IMG/VR virus record: IMGVR_UViG_3300044691_000214
Coordinates: 1-24,255 of that record
Strand: one strand, 5' to 3'
Length of the DNA: 24,255 nt
Source of the DNA: a virus
The notes beneath the pieces were generated by a model. The model did no database searches. It was not told the DNA's origin and saw only the letters and a list, made by a program, of their open reading frames with translations. Every line of letters begins with the position of its first letter. Within the stretch, counting starts at the first letter, position 1. Below are positions 11,807-24,255 of the stretch, piece by piece. The position numbers and the translations under genes are program-made.

Positions 11807-12043
11807 TTATTTTCCCTTGAGGATTTGCTGGATGAGCGCGCTACTGGCGCGCAGGTCTTCGAGCCCGCCGATGCGGTGGGCTCCGATGAAGATTTGTGGA
11901 AGCACGCGCCCGAGCGCGCTAATGGGGGTGTCAGAGCCAGGCGCGTGAAGAACGCACGGGAAGGATCGAGCAACGCACCAGGCGACTGCCGCAACGCTGA
12001 AGCGGCAGCTCTCCCGTCCGTAAATCTCGACCTTGAGGCTCAT
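11807..12043 (-). CDS. Glutaredoxin-like protein (monothiol CxxS)
   Basis: The ATG at 12043 overlaps the ParA-like gene stop (ATGA) and gives 78 residues; the longer in-frame start at 12094 would lie inside that gene. The product has the short thioredoxin fold of glutaredoxins: a first strand VEIYG, then ESCRFS where the active-site CxxC is replaced by Cys13-x-x-Ser16, then LPQIFIGAHRIGGLEDL, which matches the conserved cis-Pro and glycine-rich glutathione-binding block. Glutaredoxins reduce disulfides or bind Fe-S clusters. The monothiol-type centre and the position in a structural operon suggest a role in virion protein redox or cluster delivery (the tail tip L protein here is a probable Fe-S protein), which is inference. 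Cys23 and Cys30 are additional cysteines. Confidence 0.82.
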   Translation of the reverse strand: MSLKVEIYGRESCRFSVAAVAWCVARSFPCVLHAPGSDTPISALGRVLPQIFIGAHRIGGLEDLRASSALIQQILKGK

Positions 12044-12729
12044 TCGCCGGTCAGCTTCGCTTTTGCGAACTCGGCGAATACCAGGCCGAGCCAATGACGG
12101 ACGTAGCCGCGCAGCACGAACGAGTTCTCGGAGGTGTTGGCGACGTAGTCGCGGAACGAGGTGCCCGCGATTTCGACATTCTCGACAGCCAGCTCGTTGA
12201 GCTTGGGCATGTCCAGAACGCCGTCGCCGACGTTGAGCGCCGCCTTGGTCTTGTCGTCCCAGGCGAAGAACGTCGAATCGTTGACGTGATTGGTGACCAG
12301 GAAGTGCTTGGCGCCGGCGAGCGCCGCCGCGGTCGAGGCAATCTCGGCCAGCGAGGCCATCGAACTGCCGAGAACGTGTAGCACGACGATCCGGATCTTG
12401 CCTTCGCGGACAGCTTCCATGAAGCCGATCTCGCCGAGGGTCTTGAGCGTCGGCGACAGCAGGCTGGCGGCGACGTCGATCACGGTGACCGTGGAACCCT
12501 GCAAGGTGTCGAACACCTTCATCTGTCCATCGGACTTGGTCAGGTCGACCACTTCGGTCTGGGCCGGGAAGAAGCGCTTGAGGACGCCGGCCGGCGTCTC
12601 TGCCTGCGTGTCGAAGGCACGGACGTCGACGCCCTGGGCCTTGAAGTAGTCGAGCAGCGCGCGGGAGATCATGGTTTTACCCACCCCACCCTTGTCAGCG
12701 CCTACGATAACGACCAACGGAATTGTCAT
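12040..12729 (-). CDS. ParA/MinD-family P-loop ATPase
   Basis: Residues 11-19 (ADKGGVGKT) are a deviant Walker A motif with the signature lysine of ParA/MinD ATPases. Residues 38-42 (AFDTQ) match the Walker A' strand and VTVIDVAA near 81-88 the Walker B strand. At 229 residues it is a compact ParA without an extended N-terminal DNA-binding domain. Such enzymes dimerise on ATP and position cargo such as plasmids, cell-division sites or protein complexes. It is the first gene after the major capsid gene and is cotranscribed with neck genes, which is unusual; no ParB neighbour is adjacent, although two ParB-like proteins are encoded at 21501-23031. Start ATG 12729 is preferred because the earlier GTG at 12759 lies in the terminator hairpin. 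Confidence 0.88.
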   Translation of the reverse strand: MTIPLVVIVGADKGGVGKTMISRALLDYFKAQGVDVRAFDTQAETPAGVLKRFFPAQTEVVDLTKSDGQMKVFDTLQGSTVTVIDVAASLLSPTLKTLGEIGFMEAVREGKIRIVVLHVLGSSMASLAEIASTAAALAGAKHFLVTNHVNDSTFFAWDDKTKAALNVGDGVLDMPKLNELAVENVEIAGTSFRDYVANTSENSFVLRGYVRHWLGLVFAEFAKAKLTGE

Positions 12730-12748
12730 GTGTGTTCCCAAAATGAAA

Positions 12749-12771
12749 GAGGCGGGCACCAGGCCCGCCTC
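12749..12771 (-). terminator. Rho-independent terminator after the major capsid gene
   Basis: On the minus strand GAGGCGGGC and GCCCGCCTC form a perfect 9-bp stem with a 5-nt loop, followed by TTTCATTTT. It lies 32 nt past the capsid stop codon and ends about 20 nt before the ParA-like ATG. It should end the capsid message. The stem also overlaps the predicted transcription start of the copy 5 promoter. Confidence 0.85.
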
Positions 12772-16662: not shown

Positions 16663-17937
16663 TCAAAGCGAAACACCCAGTATCTTGATGTTCCGCATCG
16701 GGAATTCGATATCGATGCAGTAGCCGAGACCGTCCGCGGGATGCTCGAAACCGCCCGACTTGTCGACCTCGGGGGTGCCGGCCTTGTAGATCGTCTGTTC
16801 CAGCGAGATGATGGTCTGCTTGCAGTTCGAGTTCACGAACAGGCGGATCTCGCCCTCGGCCGAGCGCAGCATGCGGTTGACCGAGTTGACGCGATCGGCG
16901 ATGCGCGGATGCTTGCGCTTGTATTTCAGCTTGCGGAAGCCGGCGTCCCTGAGAATGTCGAGATCGCTCTCGCCCCTGCCCTTGGTCGAGCGTGAGGCGC
17001 CCGCGGGGTCGGGGTAGATTATCACGTTCTTCATGTGCCGGTGGTAGCGCCGGCTCAGCTCGTCTGCCGTCTCCTGGGTGTTCGAGCCCATCAGAATGCA
17101 CTCGTCGATAATCCAGACCTCGCCGTTCGGCTGCGGCTGCATGATCACGGACGACATCGGGTCGATGTTGAAATCCTGTCCGACCCAAATGGGTAGTTTC
17201 GGGTTGAACTTGTATTTGTCGCCGACATGGGTGCGGCGATCGAAGGCGTAATAGACCCGGCCCGACATGGTCTCGAAGGAAGCTTCGAACTCCTGGCGGA
17301 ACGACTTTTCGTCCATGTCGGCCCGCGCCTGGTCGATTTCCTCCTTGGGGATGAACGGCGAGGTGATGGTCGGGAATTGCCAGCTCTTCCACGCATTGAC
17401 GATGCGCCGGCCCTTCTTGTTCAGATAGGTGTCGCCGCGCTTGCCGAGCTGGTAGAGATCATGCAGCCAGTTGAACGACTTCGGGGTGCCGATGATCAGC
17501 GCCTCGCCGAGCGTCGTTGCCAGCGTCGGGCGCAGAACCTTGATCCAGGTATCGGGCTTGATGTCCTGGGCCTCGTCGATGATCAGCAAATGCAGACCGA
17601 TACCGCGGAGGGTGTCGGGCTTGTCGGCGCCCTTGAGCGCGATCAGCGTGCCGTTGTAGAGGCGGATCGTCATCCGCGTTTCGTTGTAGGAGCGGACCCA
17701 GGCGCGCGGGATCGCGTCCTTCAATTCGTCCCAGAGAATGCCGCGAGCCATCTGATAGGTCGGCGCCACATACCAGATGATCTGCTTGGGGATCACGCAA
17801 CGCCGGCAGATTGCCTGCTTGGAGAGCTGGGTCTTACCCCAACGTCGCCCGGCGACAACTACTTTGAACCGTCGATGGTCTTTGAAGACCTGCCGCTGGC
17901 CGCGGTGGAGCTTGATGACGCTGTCGGCTGCGCTCAC
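16663..17937 (-). CDS. terL: Terminase large subunit
   Basis: This 424-residue protein has all the parts of a packaging motor. The ATPase half has an adenine-binding QRQVF segment, Walker A AGRRWGKT (29-36), Walker B LLIIDE (117-122) and coupling motif GTP (150-152). The RNase H-like nuclease half has three acidic clusters: GQDFNID (Asp255), YPDPAG (Asp310) and HPADGLGY (Asp402). It packages DNA into the prohead through the portal and cuts the concatemer. The GTG start at 17937 overlaps the stop of the small subunit (GTGA), after an AAGAAGG that serves as ribosome binding site. The length is typical of the family. Confidence 0.97.
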   Translation of the reverse strand: MSAADSVIKLHRGQRQVFKDHRRFKVVVAGRRWGKTQLSKQAICRRCVIPKQIIWYVAPTYQMARGILWDELKDAIPRAWVRSYNETRMTIRLYNGTLIALKGADKPDTLRGIGLHLLIIDEAQDIKPDTWIKVLRPTLATTLGEALIIGTPKSFNWLHDLYQLGKRGDTYLNKKGRRIVNAWKSWQFPTITSPFIPKEEIDQARADMDEKSFRQEFEASFETMSGRVYYAFDRRTHVGDKYKFNPKLPIWVGQDFNIDPMSSVIMQPQPNGEVWIIDECILMGSNTQETADELSRRYHRHMKNVIIYPDPAGASRSTKGRGESDLDILRDAGFRKLKYKRKHPRIADRVNSVNRMLRSAEGEIRLFVNSNCKQTIISLEQTIYKAGTPEVDKSGGFEHPADGLGYCIDIEFPMRNIKILGVSL

Positions 17938-18641
17938 ACCTTGCCTTCTTCGACGATCTCGGTGTCACCGATATCAAGGTCGAGATCGTCCCCGTCGTCC
18001 TCCTCAGAGGCGTTCTGCAACGCGGTGATTTCAGCCTGTGTCAGATCCTCGAATAGCAGTTTCGGCATGGTGGCTTCGTCGATGTCATTTTCGATATCGA
18101 GCAGGATCCACCTGGTCTTGACCATTGAGGCGTTGATGTTCTCGGCGCGCTGCAGCGCCTTGATGTCGTCACTGAGCGCCGCGGCCGTCTTGTCCGGCTT
18201 GGTGAGGTCGGCAATATCCTTCAGCGTCATGTTGAGTAGGGTCTGGATGATCTGCGACTGCTGGAACAGCGTGGTTTTGGTCTGCTCGATCCGCTCTTTG
18301 CGCTTCGAGGCGAAGGCGCCGATGATGGCGCTTGCAGTCGAGCCCGCGACGCCGCCGGCAACGGCCGCAGCAGTCTTGCCCGCGAGCAGATGCCGCTTCG
18401 AGCCGCGACCGATATAGACTCCTTCGGCCATCAGCCGCTTGAAATGACTGCGGATCGAATTGCCGGAGATATCGTAGTGATCCTCCAGCTCCTTGCGCGA
18501 CATGGTGTTGTAGGCGACGTGGTCCTCGATCTCGAGCCACTGTTGCTTGGTCAGGCGCTTGCCCGAACGGGTCGGGGGATCCTCCGCGACGACAACTTCG
18601 GGGACGATTTCAGGTGTAACTGGTTCAATAGGTTCAGACAT
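17934..18641 (-). CDS. terS: Terminase small subunit-like DNA-binding protein
   Basis: The ATG at 18641 gives 235 residues; the longer TTG start at 18659 would lie in the palindrome and is rejected. After a Pro/Glu/Val-rich N-terminus, residues 31-72 contain a helix-turn-helix (LTKQQWLEIEDHVAYN, then SRKELEDHYDISGNSIRSHF), suited to binding the packaging site. A Gly/Ala-rich linker and helical region follow (about 85-200), and the C-terminus is very acidic. Its position directly before terL with a 4-nt overlap makes it the terminase small subunit. There is little sequence upstream of the ATG that resembles a ribosome binding site, and a possible -10 (TACTGT) ends 6 nt before it. Confidence 0.82.
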   Translation of the reverse strand: MSEPIEPVTPEIVPEVVVAEDPPTRSGKRLTKQQWLEIEDHVAYNTMSRKELEDHYDISGNSIRSHFKRLMAEGVYIGRGSKRHLLAGKTAAAVAGGVAGSTASAIIGAFASKRKERIEQTKTTLFQQSQIIQTLLNMTLKDIADLTKPDKTAAALSDDIKALQRAENINASMVKTRWILLDIENDIDEATMPKLLFEDLTQAEITALQNASEEDDGDDLDLDIGDTEIVEEGKV

Positions 18642-18653
18642 TTGCTCACAGTA

Positions 18654-18667
18654 AGTCAATTATGACT
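18654..18667 (-). promoter_or_regulatory. Palindromic operator-like site, copy 9 (upstream of terminase)
   Basis: AGTCAATTATGACT has one mismatch in the right half-site. On the minus strand TGGACA (18672-18677) and TACTGT (18648-18653) flank it at 18-bp spacing. It lies 12 bp upstream of the terS start codon. Confidence 0.7.
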
Positions 18668-18787: not shown

Positions 18788-19060
18788 TCAGAAGGGCTCG
18801 GGACGAACGAGGGGTATAAATCTCCGAAAAGCTGCGGCTGTAGGCATGATCTTCATTGGATACGGCCCAACGAGTTGCGTCTTCAGATAGCCATGACGCT
18901 CCAGGATCTTCAGCGATCCGGTTATCGCCTGGTCCGACACGGTGGCGCCGTAGCTCAGATTCGTTTTAAGCAGGGCCACGGTCATCTCCTCGCCGCGCGC
19001 CGCGGCGGTGACGATGAGGGTCATGATCTCGATCTGCTTCTTGGTTCGGGTGAACTTCAC
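18788..19060 (-). CDS. Winged-helix DNA-binding protein, putative regulator
   Basis: The GTG at 19060 overlaps the preceding stop (GTGA) and gives 90 residues. The frame is open further upstream, but that part is the shadow of the membrane miniprotein gene. After a basic start (KFTRTKKQIEIM), residues 27-62 form a helix-turn-helix pattern (ALLKTNLSYGATVSDQAITG, then SLKILERHGYLK) followed by a wing-like strand pair ending PMKIMPT. This resembles a minimal MarR-like winged helix. It is the last gene of the accessory operon. It is the only obvious small transcription-factor fold in the window outside terS, so it is a candidate reader of the dispersed palindrome; this is speculation. Confidence 0.72.
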   Translation of the reverse strand: MKFTRTKKQIEIMTLIVTAAARGEEMTVALLKTNLSYGATVSDQAITGSLKILERHGYLKTQLVGPYPMKIMPTAAAFRRFIPLVRPEPF

Positions 19061-19245
19061 AGCGCGGCGAGACCCGCGCCGATGAAGGCCCCGACGATGC
19101 CCAGCATGAACAAGGCGTCCAACAGTGAGCGGCGCTTGCACGGCGATCCGTCGATCGGGTTCCGGCGATCGGCCACAATGGCCGTCAGCATCGATATCGC
19201 GAAAATGCCAACGCCGACGTATTGCACCACGTTTTGCTCACCCAT
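19057..19245 (-). CDS. Small two-TM membrane protein
   Basis: The product is 62 residues. Two hydrophobic stretches (about residues 6-25, VVQYVGVGIFAISMLTAIVA, and 42-62, LLDALFMLGIVGAFIGAGLA) are separated by a polar loop with DRR and CKRR. No family is recognised. The ATG at 19245 overlaps the upstream stop as TGATG with AAGGA 8 nt before it; a GTG at 19248 is an alternative. Two-TM proteins of this size can be holins, but the gene is far from the endolysin and sits in the accessory operon, so membrane recruitment of a partner is equally plausible. Confidence 0.65.
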   Translation of the reverse strand: MGEQNVVQYVGVGIFAISMLTAIVADRRNPIDGSPCKRRSLLDALFMLGIVGAFIGAGLAAL

Positions 19246-20156
19246 CACATGCGTCCTTTGAAAATCTCGTTCGGACCCTGGTCGTCGAATACGGTCAGAG
19301 GTAATTTCTGCGGGATCTGGATCCGGCGATCGGGGTTCTTCCAGACGCCATACATCGGCGAGGCCAGCGTGATCTGCTGCAGGCTCTTGATGATGGTATG
19401 GGCGGTCATGGCGTCGACGCGCCCCTGCCCCTTGTCCCGGTTGTTGCCGGTCTTCTCCAGCGCCGAGTGCCGGTAGTAGAAATCCTTGCAGACCTGGAGC
19501 AATCGCTCGCGCTCCGCCGGCGTCTTGGCTTCCAGCTCGGCCACGATCGCCTCGAAGTCCTGGGGACTGGAGGCAAAATTGGTGCGGAAGAACTTCAGAC
19601 CCTCGAGATATTTGTTCGAGTTCGACGGCTTGACGAAGGAGAACCCCGCCTTCTGGCCGAACAGATTGAATTTTGACATCGAGGACTGGATCTCCATGAA
19701 GGAGTTGCCCTCCATGCGCGAGACCAGGTTCATCATGCGGTAGCCGGCGCCGATGCCCCGATACATCGTGTCCACGACGAAACGGGAGATGACGCGGAAG
19801 TTCTTGTTGATCAGCTTGTAGCGGAGCGTGTTGGTGACCTTGGTGTCGCCCGAGCCCGGCTTCATCGACGGAAACGCCAGGTGGCGCTCCTTCAGGAGGC
19901 CCTTGGGGTTCGCGGTCACGAGCACGCCGATGGTCTCGCCGTAGAGCGTCAGCTTCCAGAAGCGCGGCCCGATCGGGAGATTTTCAGCCTTGTAATGCAG
20001 ATCGTGCAGAAGATTCCAGTCAGCGATCTCCCCGCGCTCGACGAACATATCGCCCAGCAGCGAGAAACAGGGCACCGGTGCGTCCACGCGCTGCACGAGC
20101 GACTCGCACTGCTCGATCTCGTCGGACGCACCAGCGGTCTTCCCTGCAAGCGGCAT
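19245..20156 (-). CDS. GNAT-fold acyltransferase-like protein, COG2401/Mom-like
   Basis: The 303-residue protein has a GNAT core from about residue 65 to 175. WKLTLYGETIGVLV is the first hairpin. RFVVDTMYRGIGAGYRMM (125-142) is the acyl-CoA pyrophosphate-binding motif A pattern (RGxGxG). EIQSSMSKFNLFGQKAGF (155-172) resembles the SxMxxxNPFFxKAGM block I recall from the predicted acetyltransferase part of COG2401 proteins, where it is fused to an ABC ATPase. Phage Mu Mom, which modifies adenine in DNA, is another member of this superfamily. The C-terminal 130 residues are helical and unassigned. An ABC ATPase gene lies two genes upstream. DNA-base modification is possible, but no substrate is shown by the sequence. 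Confidence 0.75.
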   Translation of the reverse strand: MPLAGKTAGASDEIEQCESLVQRVDAPVPCFSLLGDMFVERGEIADWNLLHDLHYKAENLPIGPRFWKLTLYGETIGVLVTANPKGLLKERHLAFPSMKPGSGDTKVTNTLRYKLINKNFRVISRFVVDTMYRGIGAGYRMMNLVSRMEGNSFMEIQSSMSKFNLFGQKAGFSFVKPSNSNKYLEGLKFFRTNFASSPQDFEAIVAELEAKTPAERERLLQVCKDFYYRHSALEKTGNNRDKGQGRVDAMTAHTIIKSLQQITLASPMYGVWKNPDRRIQIPQKLPLTVFDDQGPNEIFKGRM

Positions 20157-20159
20157 TTG

Positions 20160-20474
20160 TTAGCCGATCGACTTCAGAAAAGTTGGCACATCGACTGGCG
20201 CCGCCGGGGTGTGCTTTGCCGCCTGGCCGATCTGGTAGGGCATCCACTCGGCGTAGCGGCCGAACTCGACCATATGCCGATCGCCTTCTTGCACCAGCGT
20301 CACCGAGGACTCGAAGCGGACCTGGCCGTTCGGATAGGTGATGCTCAGGTTGACGCAGCGATCGCCCCAGACATAGATCACGTCGGCCTTAAACGGCGCC
20401 TGATATTCAAGCAGGATTGGGTCGTTTGCGGGCGGCGTGTAGAGAACAACGCGGCCGACTGTCGGTTTGATCAT
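20160..20474 (-). CDS. Small conserved-type phage protein, unknown function
   Basis: The 104-residue product starts IKPTVGRVVLYTP and continues with KADVIYVWGDRCVNLSITYPNG, a beta-rich pattern (GRVV.Y, then ..VNL..) seen in small phage proteins of unknown role. The C-terminal WMPYQIGQAAK is followed by a Pro-rich tail. The ATG at 20474 overlaps the ABC ATPase stop, and the next gene begins 3 nt after its own stop. It therefore lies between the ATPase and the GNAT protein in a translationally coupled run. Biochemical function cannot be given. Confidence 0.75.
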   Translation of the reverse strand: MIKPTVGRVVLYTPPANDPILLEYQAPFKADVIYVWGDRCVNLSITYPNGQVRFESSVTLVQEGDRHMVEFGRYAEWMPYQIGQAAKHTPAAPVDVPTFLKSIG

Positions 20475-21115
20475 GGTGTTTTCCTTGTTTCGAGGGTGAC
20501 TTTTTCACGGAAGCGCTTGGTGATGATCAGCGACGGCCCTAGTTCCGCTGTCAGGTCGTCGTGGGTGGTCGCCACCATCAGCGTCTTGCCGCGCGCGCGG
20601 GCGACCTTCTGCATGTTGAAGGCGACGCACTTTGCGGTGACGCGGTCGAGCACGGCGCCGAACTCGTCGGCGATCCAGACGTCGGCGTCGGTGTCCATCA
20701 GCATTGCCAGCTTGAGCCGGTAGCGCTGGCCGTCCGAGAGCTGGTTCGGCGTCTTGATGTAGATCCAGGCGTCGGAGATCCCGGCCTTGGCGAGAATGTC
20801 GGCCGCCTCGGTCGTGGTCTTGCCGACCAGCTCGATCACGGGCTTGTTGGGCAGCTCGATCTTGTTGAGATCGGCGATCTTCAGACCGTCGCGATTCTCC
20901 ATGATCTGGGTCAGGAGACTCAATGCCAACGACTTGCCACCACCGGACTGCCCGGTGATGAACACCACGTCGCCTTGATTGACCTCAACTTCGAGGTTGT
21001 CGAAGATCACGAACCGCTTGTCCGTGAGACCCAAGCCGAAACCCTCGGCGATCTCAAGCACGCGCGGGGTGCGCTGCACCGATGAGGTGAAGCTCTTGGT
21101 GAGGATGTATTTCAC
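20471..21115 (-). CDS. Soluble ABC-type ATPase, COG2401-like
   Basis: The 214-residue protein is a stand-alone ABC nucleotide-binding domain with no membrane segment. Walker A is GQSGGGKS (55-62). The signature is LSDGQRYRLKLA (LSDGQ at 126-130 instead of LSGGQ). Walker B is VWIADE (146-151), the D-loop is VLD (155-157) and the H-loop histidine is His185 in ATTHDD. The TxxQLSDGQRYRLKLAML arrangement and the short helical region suit the ABC half of COG2401 proteins, in which the ATPase is fused to a predicted acetyltransferase. Here the GNAT partner is a separate gene two positions downstream. A transporter role is unlikely. The start overlaps the previous stop (ATGA). Confidence 0.9.
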   Translation of the reverse strand: MKYILTKSFTSSVQRTPRVLEIAEGFGLGLTDKRFVIFDNLEVEVNQGDVVFITGQSGGGKSLALSLLTQIMENRDGLKIADLNKIELPNKPVIELVGKTTTEAADILAKAGISDAWIYIKTPNQLSDGQRYRLKLAMLMDTDADVWIADEFGAVLDRVTAKCVAFNMQKVARARGKTLMVATTHDDLTAELGPSLIITKRFREKVTLETRKTP

Positions 21116-21504
21116 GCGGAGTCATCCTCGTCGTCGTAAAGATCGTCTTCCGGGATCTCCTCGCCGTCAGATCCGATGTATCGGACGTTGGCGTAGGTTC
21201 GGTTTATGATCTGATCCTTGACGGAATCGGCCGCAGTATTGAGAACGCACAGCTCGGGAATGCTGATATCCGGCCCCACCCCGTAGGATGACATCGGAAA
21301 GCCGAAGCAGATTGCTGCGATAGCTACCGCGGTGATCTCGCCGGTCTTGACGCGCGCGACCAGGTTTTCGACCAGATCCAGCAGCTTCGCGTCAGGCACG
21401 AACTCGGCGTCATCGTCTGTGGGACTGGGCGGCGTGAATTCCTTGCGGGTGCCGATGCTGATGACCTTCGGCGGAACGATCGCTTCCTTGATTTCCTCGG
21501 TCAT
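21112..21504 (-). CDS. Hypothetical acidic protein
   Basis: Unrecognised, 130 residues. The N-terminus is polar and Pro-rich. Residues 40-100 contain a helical core (AKLLDLVENLVARVKTGEIT, then AVAIAAICFGFP). The C-terminal 25 residues are strongly acidic (EEIPEDDLYDDEDDSA). A middle segment GEITAVAIAAI has the look of small phage proteins with a short alpha/beta unit. Both ends overlap neighbours by 4 nt, so it is part of the coupled accessory operon between a ParB-like protein and the ABC ATPase. Acidic tails of this kind often contact basic partners or mimic DNA; nothing more specific can be said. Confidence 0.72.
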   Translation of the reverse strand: MTEEIKEAIVPPKVISIGTRKEFTPPSPTDDDAEFVPDAKLLDLVENLVARVKTGEITAVAIAAICFGFPMSSYGVGPDISIPELCVLNTAADSVKDQIINRTYANVRYIGSDGEEIPEDDLYDDEDDSA

Positions 21505-22196
21505 GCCGCGATGCCCAAGGTGTCGATGTAAGCGACCAGGGCGGCGGCGCCGGTGAGACCTGTCTTGGTCTCGACGCTGTTCATGAAGCCCCGCACGCGC
21601 CGGCTCTGCTCGATGGTGACCCGTTTGAAGCCCAGAGCGTCGGTGACGGGCGCTGCGGTGCTATCGACCGCGGCTTCAGAGGCTGTGTTCTCGACTTTCT
21701 GGGTCTCTACGGCTGCGTTGATGTCCTCGACCATCGCATCCATGTTCATGTCGTCGAACGAGGCGGTCAGGCGCTCCAGCTCGACGTCGCCGAAACCAAG
21801 CGTATCCATCTCGATCTCGCCAGCCTCGGCCAGCTCGGAGACCTGTGCCTGCAGCAGCTCGGTGTCGTAGTTGGTGCCGGAGGTGGCATTGTCCGAAATG
21901 CGCAGCGCATCGGCCTCCGCATCGGTCAGATCGTGGCGAACAATGACGGGAACCTGTTTCCAGCCCTCGCCCAGCGCCGCGAGGCGGCGCCCGTGGCCCG
22001 TGATGATCTCACCGGAAGGCTTGACGTTGAGCGGGTTGGCGATGCCGTATTTGCGGATCGACTTGCGCAGCAGCACCACCTCTTCCTCGGGGTGCTTCTT
22101 GGCGTTCTTCGAGCTTTCGAAGATCTTGGCGATGTCCCAGCTTTCGACCGGCAGCATCAGGCCGTCGCGCGTCGCCACCGGCTTAATCGTGGTCAT
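21501..22196 (-). CDS. ParB/Srx-fold protein 2
   Basis: The 231-residue product has an N-terminal ParB/sulfiredoxin-like domain. The sequence runs through LLRKSIRKYGIANPLNV, then EIITGHGRRLAAL (GHGRR at 67-71, equivalent to the ParB GxxRR nucleotide-binding motif), then VPVIVRHDLTDAEADALRISDN. This layout is typical of phage ParB-like proteins, which are often found next to DNA-modification genes. No KorB-type helix-turn-helix is obvious after it; the rest is helical and acidic with a Val/Ala/Thr-rich linker. It could bind CTP or act as a DNA-associated ATPase or nuclease; the sequence does not decide. The ATG at 22196 lies 14 nt inside the preceding zinc-ribbon gene. Confidence 0.88.
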   Translation of the reverse strand: MTTIKPVATRDGLMLPVESWDIAKIFESSKNAKKHPEEEVVLLRKSIRKYGIANPLNVKPSGEIITGHGRRLAALGEGWKQVPVIVRHDLTDAEADALRISDNATSGTNYDTELLQAQVSELAEAGEIEMDTLGFGDVELERLTASFDDMNMDAMVEDINAAVETQKVENTASEAAVDSTAAPVTDALGFKRVTIEQSRRVRGFMNSVETKTGLTGAAALVAYIDTLGIAA

Positions 22197-22371
22197 GTTC
22201 GTAATCCTGTCCGGCGTAGAGCGCCATTAATTCGTCGTCGTCGAGTTCGCTGTCGTCGTCCTTCTCCTCGAAGAACTCCCCTGCCCCGCACGGCACGCAC
22301 TTGGCGCTGGGGCGGTGCGGGTTGAAGAATTTGCAGGAGGGGCAGTCCTTGTGGCGCGGCTTGAAGGCCAT
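22183..22371 (-). CDS. Zinc-ribbon-like miniprotein with acidic tail
   Basis: The 62-residue protein contains two cysteine pairs (CPSC at residues 10-13 and CVPC near 25-28) separated by a short basic/aromatic loop, which suggests one structural zinc site. The second half is strongly acidic (EEKDDDSELDDDE) and ends in YEHDHD. The ATG at 22371 comes directly after the stop of ParB-like protein 1, and its 3' end overlaps ParB-like protein 2, so it is translationally tied to both. An adaptor role between the two is a guess. Confidence 0.75.
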   Translation of the reverse strand: MAFKPRHKDCPSCKFFNPHRPSAKCVPCGAGEFFEEKDDDSELDDDELMALYAGQDYEHDHD

Positions 22372-23031
22372 CTACTCGGCCACCGCGAAAAGCTGATGCA
22401 CCAGGGCGTCGCCGGCGTTGGTGAGATCGTCCGAGGAGGTGAACGCCTGGCGCTTCTTCACCTTCGTCAGCAGTTCGGTGATGCTCTCGGCATCGCCCAG
22501 CGTGACCTTGAAGCGCATAATGGTGTGGGTCTTCGGGGCCTTCTCGGCCGCCGGGCCAGGCTCGGCGCCGTCTTCTTCGTCGAACCCGTCGGGAATTTCC
22601 AATGCGTCGAGCGCTATATCTACGCTTGAGCAGATCGCGCTCATGTCGGCGGCGGTGTAGGGCAGGATATTTTGCAGATCTTCCGGGTCGTCGAGACCCT
22701 CAATCAGCCGGGCCAGCTCGATGGTGTCGTCGGCGCCGTATCGCATGTTGTCGGCGAGCGAGATCTTTTTGGCCTTGTCGTCGCTGATTTCGCCGAGATT
22801 GAAGATCGGGACCAACTTGATGCCGGCTGCGATCGCCTCAGACCAGCGGTGCTCGCCGCCCAGAATTTCGTAACCGTCGATCTCCCGATTGGTCCGCACC
22901 ACGAACGGCTTGAAAATGCCCAGTGTGGCGATCGACGTGCCCAGCTTGGTCTCGTTGTCGGGCGAAACCCGGTTTGTATTCCAGGGGTTGGGCCGCATCG
23001 TATGCGGGTCGACCATCAATTGCTTGGACAC
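22372..23031 (-). CDS. ParB/Srx-fold protein 1
   Basis: The 219-residue product begins with a ParB/Srx domain: NPWNTNRVSPDNETKLGTSI, LGIFKPFVVR, then YEILGGEHRWSEAIAAG (GGEHRW at 58-63 replaces the usual GERR) and KKISLADNMRYG. The ADN triplet resembles the ENxQR block of ParB. No separate DNA-binding domain is obvious in the remaining helical, acidic half. It is the first gene of the accessory operon. The GTG start at 23031 has AAGGA 6 nt upstream. The leader contains palindrome copy 10, shared with the divergent helicase. Compared with protein 2, the motif sequence differs enough to suggest two separate families rather than recent duplication. Confidence 0.87.
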   Translation of the reverse strand: MSKQLMVDPHTMRPNPWNTNRVSPDNETKLGTSIATLGIFKPFVVRTNREIDGYEILGGEHRWSEAIAAGIKLVPIFNLGEISDDKAKKISLADNMRYGADDTIELARLIEGLDDPEDLQNILPYTAADMSAICSSVDIALDALEIPDGFDEEDGAEPGPAAEKAPKTHTIMRFKVTLGDAESITELLTKVKKRQAFTSSDDLTNAGDALVHQLFAVAE

Positions 23032-23099: not shown

Positions 23100-24255
23100 A
23101 TGACTAAAATCATTACCATCGCCGCAAATGCGGTTGTCGCGAAGATCATCGACGCCTCGGACGAGGTGAAGACGTTCGTCTCCGACAAGCTCTCCTTCCT
23201 GGTCGAGGGGGCGTCGATGATGTCGTCGTTCCAGAATTCGAGCTGGAACGGCCGCACGTCACTGTTCAGCCGGCGGACGTCGACCTTCCCTGCTGGCTTC
23301 GTGTTCCTGATCCACAGCGAGCTGACCCGCAAAGGCTACACGGTCAGGATCGTGCAGAAGGGTCTGCCGGCGCCGCAAGGTCCGATCGCGCCCAAGGTCG
23401 ACGACTTCGCGCCCGACCCGCGCTACGATTTCCACGACAAGGCACTGGTTCAGGTGCTCAAGCACGGCCGCGGGATTCTGCAGGTCGCCACCGGTGGCGG
23501 CAAATCGCGCATCTGCAAGCTGATCGTGGCGCGCTATCGGCGCCCGACGCTGTTTCTGACCACGCGCGGCGTCCTGATGTATCAGATGAAGCGCGATTTC
23601 GAGAAGAACTGCGGCTTTCGCCCTGGCATCATCGGCGACGGGCACTGGGAACCGAAGACCGGCTTGAATACCGGCATGGTCCAGACCCTGGTGCAGCAGC
23701 TCGCGACCCCGAATATCGACGAAGAGCGCCGCGAGCACGTGCGCCTGATCACCGAAGCGGGGCAGAAGCGGACGCCGGCGCAGTTCCAGGCGCTGGCGAA
23801 GGCCTCCTTTGCGGCCAAACAGAAGCTCCGCGATCGCGCGGTCGACTTTCTGTCCTCGATCGAGGTCGTGATCGGCGAAGAGGCCCACGAAGCGGGCGGC
23901 AACTCCTATTACGAGATCCTGCGTCACTGCAAGAACGCCCAGATTCGCGTCGCGCTGACGGCGACACCGTTCATGCGGGACAATGCAGAGGACAATATGC
24001 GGCTGATGGCTGCATTTGGGCCTATTTTGCTCAAGGTGTCCGAGAAGCTGCTGATCGACCGCGGCATCCTGGCGAAGCCCTACTTCGTGTTCGACGATCC
24101 GCCGGCGCACCCGAAGCTGCGGAAGTCGTCGCCCTATCAGCGCGCTGTCTCGCTCGGTATCGCCGAGAGTGCCCCGCGGAACCAGCGCATCGCCGACTGG
24201 GCCTATAAAGCGAGCCAGCACGGGCTTTCAGTGCTGATTCTGGTCGCGCGCAAGG
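23100..24255 (+). CDS. SF2 helicase, UvsW/RadD-like (partial, C-terminus off window)
   Basis: This is the only clear plus-strand gene; 385 residues are visible and the frame is still open at the window edge. Motif I is LQVATGGGKSRIC (Walker A at about 129-136), motif II is VVIGEEAHE (260-264) and motif III is VALTATPFM (284-292), followed by segments like RGILAKPYFVF typical of type III restriction-helicase/UvsW proteins. The N-terminal 105 residues are an extra domain of unknown role. Such helicases unwind branched DNA in phage recombination or replication restart. The ATG at 23100 follows a tiny 4-codon ORF that begins at 23089 and whose stop overlaps it; AGGA lies before the tiny ORF. The start is therefore slightly uncertain. 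Confidence 0.9.
   Translation, partial: MTKIITIAANAVVAKIIDASDEVKTFVSDKLSFLVEGASMMSSFQNSSWNGRTSLFSRRTSTFPAGFVFLIHSELTRKGYTVRIVQKGLPAPQGPIAPKVDDFAPDPRYDFHDKALVQVLKHGRGILQVATGGGKSRICKLIVARYRRPTLFLTTRGVLMYQMKRDFEKNCGFRPGIIGDGHWEPKTGLNTGMVQTLVQQLATPNIDEERREHVRLITEAGQKRTPAQFQALAKASFAAKQKLRDRAVDFLSSIEVVIGEEAHEAGGNSYYEILRHCKNAQIRVALTATPFMRDNAEDNMRLMAAFGPILLKVSEKLLIDRGILAKPYFVFDDPPAHPKLRKSSPYQRAVSLGIAESAPRNQRIADWAYKASQHGLSVLILVARK

Follow-up and report, generated by a model that had tools for sequence, protein, structure and literature searches.

What might a tailed virus do with a soluble ABC ATPase and a GNAT acyltransferase half that are encoded in one operon, behind two ParB-fold proteins and just upstream of the terminase genes? 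This question is raised by a module at positions 19245-23031 of the viral record IMGVR_UViG_3300044691_000214 (IMG/VR), a stretch of 24,255 bases that we call the window and to which all coordinates refer unless another locus is named. We posit that the locus is a virus-borne, ATP-gated, ParB-assisted module that acylates viral DNA before packaging, a reading to which we give an even chance of being correct. It is based on homology, the domain split, synteny, the conservation of ATPase and acyl-CoA motifs, and fold. The module comprises seven open reading frames (ORFs), all on the minus strand and all where a preliminary description of this DNA, made from its letters, had placed them:

22372..23031, minus strand: ParB1, a ParB-CTPase-fold protein of 219 amino acids and the first gene of the operon (phrog_723, E 6.5e-54; Pfam ParB_N, E 1.9e-11)
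22183..22371, minus strand: Cys4 zinc-ribbon miniprotein of 62 amino acids, with C-x2-C...C-x2-C in its sequence; an optional member
21501..22196, minus strand: ParB2, a ParB-CTPase-fold protein of 231 amino acids (phrog_930, E 6e-58; ParB_N, E 4e-7)
21112..21504, minus strand: acidic protein of 130 amino acids (isoelectric point [pI] 4.1), with no family match; not conserved
20471..21115, minus strand: soluble ABC ATPase of 214 amino acids (ABC_tran, E 2.6e-13)
20160..20474, minus strand: small spacer protein of 104 amino acids, with a partial match to phrog_2293 (E 1.8e-10); not conserved
19245..20156, minus strand: GNAT acyltransferase half of 303 amino acids (pI 9.4; phrog_886, E 9e-114; weak Pfam match, E 0.05)

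From ParB1 to the GNAT, the genes are spaced by 0, -14, -4, -4, -4, and +3 nucleotides. The tight start/stop coupling proposed at the outset is thereby borne out, with all spacings from 0 to -14 except for the single +3, and because of this spacing translational coupling is likely. The coupling runs on past the GNAT into the ORF at 19057-19248 and then to the genes for the small and large terminase subunits (TerS and TerL). The operon includes no gene for a membrane permease; our view ends with the 24-kb record.

Two halves of one protein

Is the ATPase likely to be active, and does the GNAT keep its acyl-CoA site? The ABC protein carries the complete set of motifs of an active ATPase, namely, Walker A (GQSGGGKS), the signature (LSDGQ), Walker B with the catalytic residue (WIADE), and the H-loop (TTHDD). 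These motifs are invariant or nearly so among 32 aligned split ABCs, and Walker A and TTHxD are kept in 81 of 81. The GNAT has an HY pair at residues 54-55, an acyl-CoA loop (R133-G-I-G-A-G138), and the motif EIQSSMSK. The preliminary description would have given up its proposal had the acyl-CoA site been lost; the site is retained as the R-G-I-G-A-G loop, an instance of R/Q-x-x-G-x-G, and the strict loop pattern is present in 82 of 86 split GNATs (three others are near variants, and one is unresolved by the pattern). The HY pair is found in 85 of the 86 and in all 8 aligned Mom proteins, and it is invariant across the archaeal and phage fusions described below (H258 and Y259 in the fusion alignment).

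The idea that the two proteins are the separated halves of a COG2401-like protein, also put forward in the preliminary description, holds up: the profiles of both match fused proteins, and archaeal relatives exist as single chains. (The COG2401 label comes from public annotation, in the Cyrano record, and not from a COG profile match.) An N-terminal ABC and a C-terminal GNAT are joined in single proteins of 356 to 406 amino acids in Gordonia phage Sisko, in Pseudoalteromonas phage SL25, and in one uncultured phage, and phrog_11143 is a family of such fusions. The split ABC profile matches the N-terminal half of the fusion (probability 99%, E 1e-19), and the split GNAT matches the C-terminal half by hhalign (88%, E 3e-6; with wider alignments, 98%, E 6e-14). 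When species genomes were searched with the split ABC, archaeal proteins of about 490 amino acids that hold ABC and GNAT in one chain came up. The split GNAT profile matches their GNAT domains, in most cases at E 1e-15 to 1e-27; two-gene versions are also present in Actinomycetota and Planctomycetota bins. In a tree of ABC domains, a 100/100 branch sets the phage fusions against the split-phage and archaeal-fused proteins together, a topology that does not prove the direction of the split. The model of an archaeal fusion (predicted local distance difference test [pLDDT] 88.3, predicted template modeling score [pTM] 0.84) has an ABC domain with the common transporter-type nucleotide-binding fold (Z 17.7 to HrtA).

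Two loci have unusual gene structures. In Tenacibaculum phage pT24 (L007 5815-6987), ABC-GNAT is annotated as two genes about 70 nucleotides apart, which may reflect a frameshift, an intron, or a sequencing error. On the Halomonas sulfidaeris chromosome (L191 8822-9763), the GNAT extends across three reading frames beside an intact ABC, and this is probably a decaying integrated copy.

The family of the GNAT half, phrog_886, is named "ABC transporter ATP-binding subunit" in PHROG and RefSeq, yet it is the GNAT half and is without ATPase motifs. The name is wrong, and the error has been passed on to many phage records; in the ABC/GNAT pair, this widely used annotation sits on the wrong partner. 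The misnaming probably derives from the description of COG2401.

A core module of a phage lineage

How general is this arrangement? Thirty phage records hold the GNAT, and the identical 30 hold the ABC at more than 50% identity. The top 30 TerL matches (56-68% identity) come from the same 30 records; identity then drops to 43%, and the next nearest TerL proteins come from small phages of Pelagibacter and Vibrio that do not appear among the GNAT matches. Because the GNAT, ABC, and closest-TerL record sets coincide (30/30), the ABC/GNAT pair is universal in the SSU5-nickie-RHEph10 lineage as sampled. The operon had been called accessory; instead, it is core to this lineage.

In the six phage records that were read, a divergent UvsW helicase is followed by ParB1, ParB2, ABC, and GNAT, and TerS/TerL come next after the GNAT in four of the six, the SSU5 and Cyrano records ending before that point. 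Across 87 split loci (80 IMG/VR loci plus phage records, the window included), ParB1, ParB2, ABC, and GNAT recur in the same order wherever the viral contig extends far enough, a recurrence that exceeds chance. For the fused form, 80 viral contigs were collected as best matches to one query and are not independent draws; ParB is directly upstream of the fusion in 78 of them, the other two contigs begin inside the fusion, and TerL is recognized in 52. The presence of these genes together in other phages, on which the preliminary description had partly staked its proposal, is therefore strongly supported by 30 phage records, 87 split loci, and 80 fused contigs.

The core genes lie among the following neighbors in the window:

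23100..24255, plus strand: UvsW-like DEAD/DEAH helicase, divergent and open at the window end; the conserved upstream border of the module
19057..19248, minus strand: small ORF with a 4-nucleotide overlap with the GNAT; not conserved
18788..19141, minus strand: small basic protein (pI 11.5; phrog_900, E 1e-5)
17934..18659, minus strand: probable terminase small subunit or DNA-binding protein, TerS (phrog_867, E 1.6e-26), with a 4-nucleotide overlap with TerL
16663..17937, minus strand: terminase large subunit, TerL (phrog_2, E 6e-51)

ParB1 is divergent from the helicase, and its position is conserved across loci. Helicase homologues of 35-65% identity stand at the matching place in 63 loci, and they are annotated as UvsW/DEAD in the phage records read. 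The phrog_900 protein recurs between GNAT and TerS at 52 of the 87 loci (~60%, window included). Homologues of the zinc ribbon are present at 36 of 87 (counting the window's neighbors), with the four Cys residues kept in 34 of the 36, and those of the acidic and spacer proteins at 7 and 6 of 87 (window included). The gap between ABC and GNAT in split loci holds varying small ORFs (DUF2829 and others; e.g., L003 8080-8883), much like an insertion hot spot. The left part of the window is a siphophage morphogenesis cluster on the minus strand, with tail protein L, tape measure, an Ig-domain protein, major head protein, portal, TerL, and TerS, and the module sits just upstream of TerS/TerL.

Fused copies in archaea

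Are the archaeal proteins cellular or viral? A fused copy is present in 30 of 200 genomes of one archaeal phylum; some of these genomes have two or three, and some copies have an internal stop. Their neighbors include TerL (L271 and L199), portal (L270 and L272), major capsid (L269), tail tube (L265), head protease (L274), and tail genes (L205), with no clear virion neighbor at L203. A cellular housekeeping role is unlikely for homologues that are confined to 30 of 200 genomes, occur in multiple copies and with internal stops, and mostly have virion neighbors. These observations suggest that the fused COG2401-like proteins of archaeal genomes often lie in proviruses. At L199 (10782-12677), the archaeal ABC-GNAT and TerL are followed downstream by a gene for a type I-like HsdM N6 methylase.

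Does the module mark DNA?

In the mechanism that we propose, the GNAT half would transfer an acyl group from acyl-CoA to an exocyclic amine on a base of the DNA. The soluble ABC ATPase, which is fused to the GNAT in other viruses, would form an ATP-gated dimer and in that form load the GNAT onto duplex DNA or move it there, and the ParB-fold proteins might serve as a nucleoside triphosphate-dependent DNA-binding or specificity factor, a role that ParB domains seem to have beside other viral DNA-modifying enzymes. The marked DNA would then be packaged, and the mark would most likely shield the incoming genome from restriction in the next host. We infer not only the DNA substrate, the acyl group, the ATP gating, and the ParB role but also late expression and the anti-restriction function.

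Several lines of evidence point this way. The AlphaFold model of the GNAT (mean pLDDT 88.1, pTM 0.77) matches GNAT structures at Z 10-11.5 (top 11.5); the match to the Mu Mom crystal structure (8bv8; Z 11.2, root mean square deviation 3.6, 160 residues) is the longest alignment listed, and Foldseek places both the cytidine acetyltransferase TmcA and Mom among the top 12. By sequence, the GNAT has no match in the PDB. ParB2 matches phrog_498, a DNA methyltransferase family (E 6e-31 over the N-terminal part of ParB2), PADLOC MTase_II (E 5e-18, residues 16-168), and HCTV-2 gp11, a ParB plus methyltransferase protein (41.5%). ParBs of this type are fused to DNA methylases in HCTV-2 gp11 and in Streptococcus phage Javan254, in the latter just ahead of the packaging genes. 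Furthermore, a ParB-like gene is directly upstream of a Mom-like gene in actinophage Appa (L249 3469-4621) and one gene upstream of it in actinophage Martha (L250 2193-3561). A bacterial ParB-fold/acetyltransferase fusion binds GTP (PMC12704722), an indication of how a GNAT might be aided by ParB. Finally, the place beside the packaging genes is as expected for a mark added prior to packaging. We favor DNA acylation because it joins the fold-level nucleobase GNAT relatives, the methylase- and Mom-linked ParBs, the basic GNAT, and the packaging-gene location. DNA modification, as originally suggested, is plausible given the Mom-like fold, the HY motif, and ParB partners that elsewhere accompany Mom or DNA methylases.

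What speaks against it? GNATs acting on proteins and small molecules tie with Mom in Z, and GNAT folds acylate many substrates. The profile comparison with the Mom family does not reach significance (probability 31-40%). The archaeal fused loci showed no ParB, so ParB would not always be needed. No modified base is reported for SSU5-lineage phages in the literature searched, and a term search of PMC11780129 and PMC13390438 gave no modification information on the SSU5-nickie-RHEph10 lineage. In PADLOC, no defense or anti-defense model was matched as a system. Lastly, location inside virion gene clusters fits a packaging or virion-protein role equally well, from the neighborhood alone.

Other possible roles

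That last point leads to the alternative that survives best. Could the ABC-GNAT acylate the terminase, the portal, or a capsid protein, or remodel DNA-protein complexes, with ParBs marking the DNA and its bases left unmodified? Such a packaging or virion-assembly factor would suit the close linkage to terminase or other head genes, seen in tailed viruses of bacteria and archaea alike, and universal presence in the lineage fits an assembly function better than an optional counter-defense gene. However, the terminases that go with the fused forms are highly diverse (21-63% identity to the queries), and the phages with the next nearest terminases do not appear among the GNAT matches; no specific terminase partner is therefore implied. 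The assembly role also leaves the HY motif and the Mom-like fold unexplained, and ParBs of this type are otherwise associated with enzymes that modify DNA. We judge this role unlikely, though well worth weighing.

An improbable alternative is host takeover, in which the GNAT would acylate a host protein or RNA (RNA polymerase, a ribosomal protein, or tRNA) and the ABC ATPase would target it. Phage GNATs do so elsewhere (PMC7824862), as with Rac of phiKMV-like phages, which acetylates RNA polymerase. The matches to RimI, Ard1, and TmcA in fold are also about equal to that of Mom. Yet the module is placed with the packaging and head genes and not in an early region, it has ParB-fold partners, and it is conserved in viruses of both bacteria and archaea, hosts that have few targets in common.

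A ParA/MinD-like P-loop ATPase (PF01656, E 5e-7) is encoded at 12040-12759 of the window, among structural genes and far from the ParBs, and relatives were found at only two of the related loci searched (L028 6330-7019 and L016 13488-14180), at varying places; at L028, the relative is inside the module, between ParB2 and ABC. Plasmid partition by ParB1 and ParB2, with ABC/GNAT as a DNA segregation accessory, is very improbable: the SSU5 group are phage-plasmids and some members have such ParA-like genes nearby (in the window and at L028), but these genes are sporadic, ParB-ABC-GNAT is also present in phages of 34 and 62 kb not known as plasmids, and the archaeal integrated copies are without a recognizable ParB.

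Implications

If DNA acylation is the correct reading, then a phage-plasmid lineage extending to Salmonella, E. coli, Klebsiella, Pseudomonas, and Rhizobium produces a modified base that seems never to have been sought, and both restriction-based and nanopore work on SSU5-lineage phages would be affected. More tentatively, we speculate that SSU5-group phage-plasmids and many bacterial and archaeal tailed viruses carry an undetected acylated base made shortly ahead of packaging by an ABC-GNAT machine, which would be ParB-guided in the bacterial viruses, and that acyl marking is old and common; we regard this broader view as possible, while leaning somewhat against it. The lineage would, if the reading is true, offer the first experimental handle, in easy hosts, on the long-predicted ABC-GNAT class. 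This analysis adds the recognition of a split form with two ParBs, of its universal presence in the SSU5-nickie-RHEph10 lineage as sampled, of the proviral surroundings of archaeal copies, and of the misnaming of phrog_886; any of these may have been noticed earlier.

Comparison with known systems

How does the window compare with systems already described? Its GNAT shares the GNAT fold and the HY motif with Mu Mom (phrog_1384; PDB 8bv8), and Mom-like genes have ParB neighbors in two actinophages. Mom, in contrast, is without the canonical R-x-x-G-x-G loop, has its own QSFAD motif, and has no ABC ATPase partner. The window GNAT has no PHROG match to phrog_1384, and hhalign comparisons of Mu Mom and of an 8-member Mom alignment with the split, fused, and combined GNAT profiles gave probabilities of 0.1-40%, below significance. 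The label "Mom-type" from the preliminary description thus stands for the fold and the HY motif and falls for membership in the Mom family by sequence.

The ParB-DNA methyltransferase fusions (phrog_498, HCTV-2 gp11, and Javan254) have the same type of ParB, some just upstream of packaging genes, and carry a methyltransferase domain where the window has ABC and GNAT. In cyanophage MED4-184, the genes that separate ParB from the packaging genes are not ABC-GNAT by profile. In the RNA cytidine acetyltransferases TmcA/NAT10, an ATPase is likewise coupled to a nucleobase-acetylating GNAT, although that ATPase is a helicase rather than an ABC protein, the substrate is RNA, and the likeness to the window GNAT is at the level of fold only. 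The COG2401/MK0520-type archaeal proteins are the nearest relatives of the split ABC outside the lineage (40-44% identity) and have the same domain order; they are one chain of about 490 amino acids with no ParB seen, whereas the window and its relatives have two genes.

Closest in kind are the fused phage ABC-GNAT proteins (phrog_11143; Sisko gp2, SL25, and pT24) and the class to which Iyer et al. (2013) assigned a GNAT coupled with an ABC ATPase, predicting an uncharacterized acyl modification of a DNA base (as cited, with phage pT24, in PMC7824862). The preliminary description did not recognize the gene set as a described system; the GNAT and ABC ATPase pair had in fact already been predicted, in that account, as a DNA acyl-modification system. 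The window pair has both domains of this class, with intact ABC ATPase motifs and a GNAT homologous to the fusion C-terminal half, and in Sisko, SL25, and most fused contigs, ParB is upstream and the terminase downstream, as in the window. The window differs in having ABC and GNAT as individual genes on either side of a spacer gene, in its two ParBs and longer GNAT, and in an ABC clade well apart from the ABCs of the phage fusions (the 100/100 branch). In total, the module is a variant of the already predicted GNAT-ABC class of DNA-modification systems.

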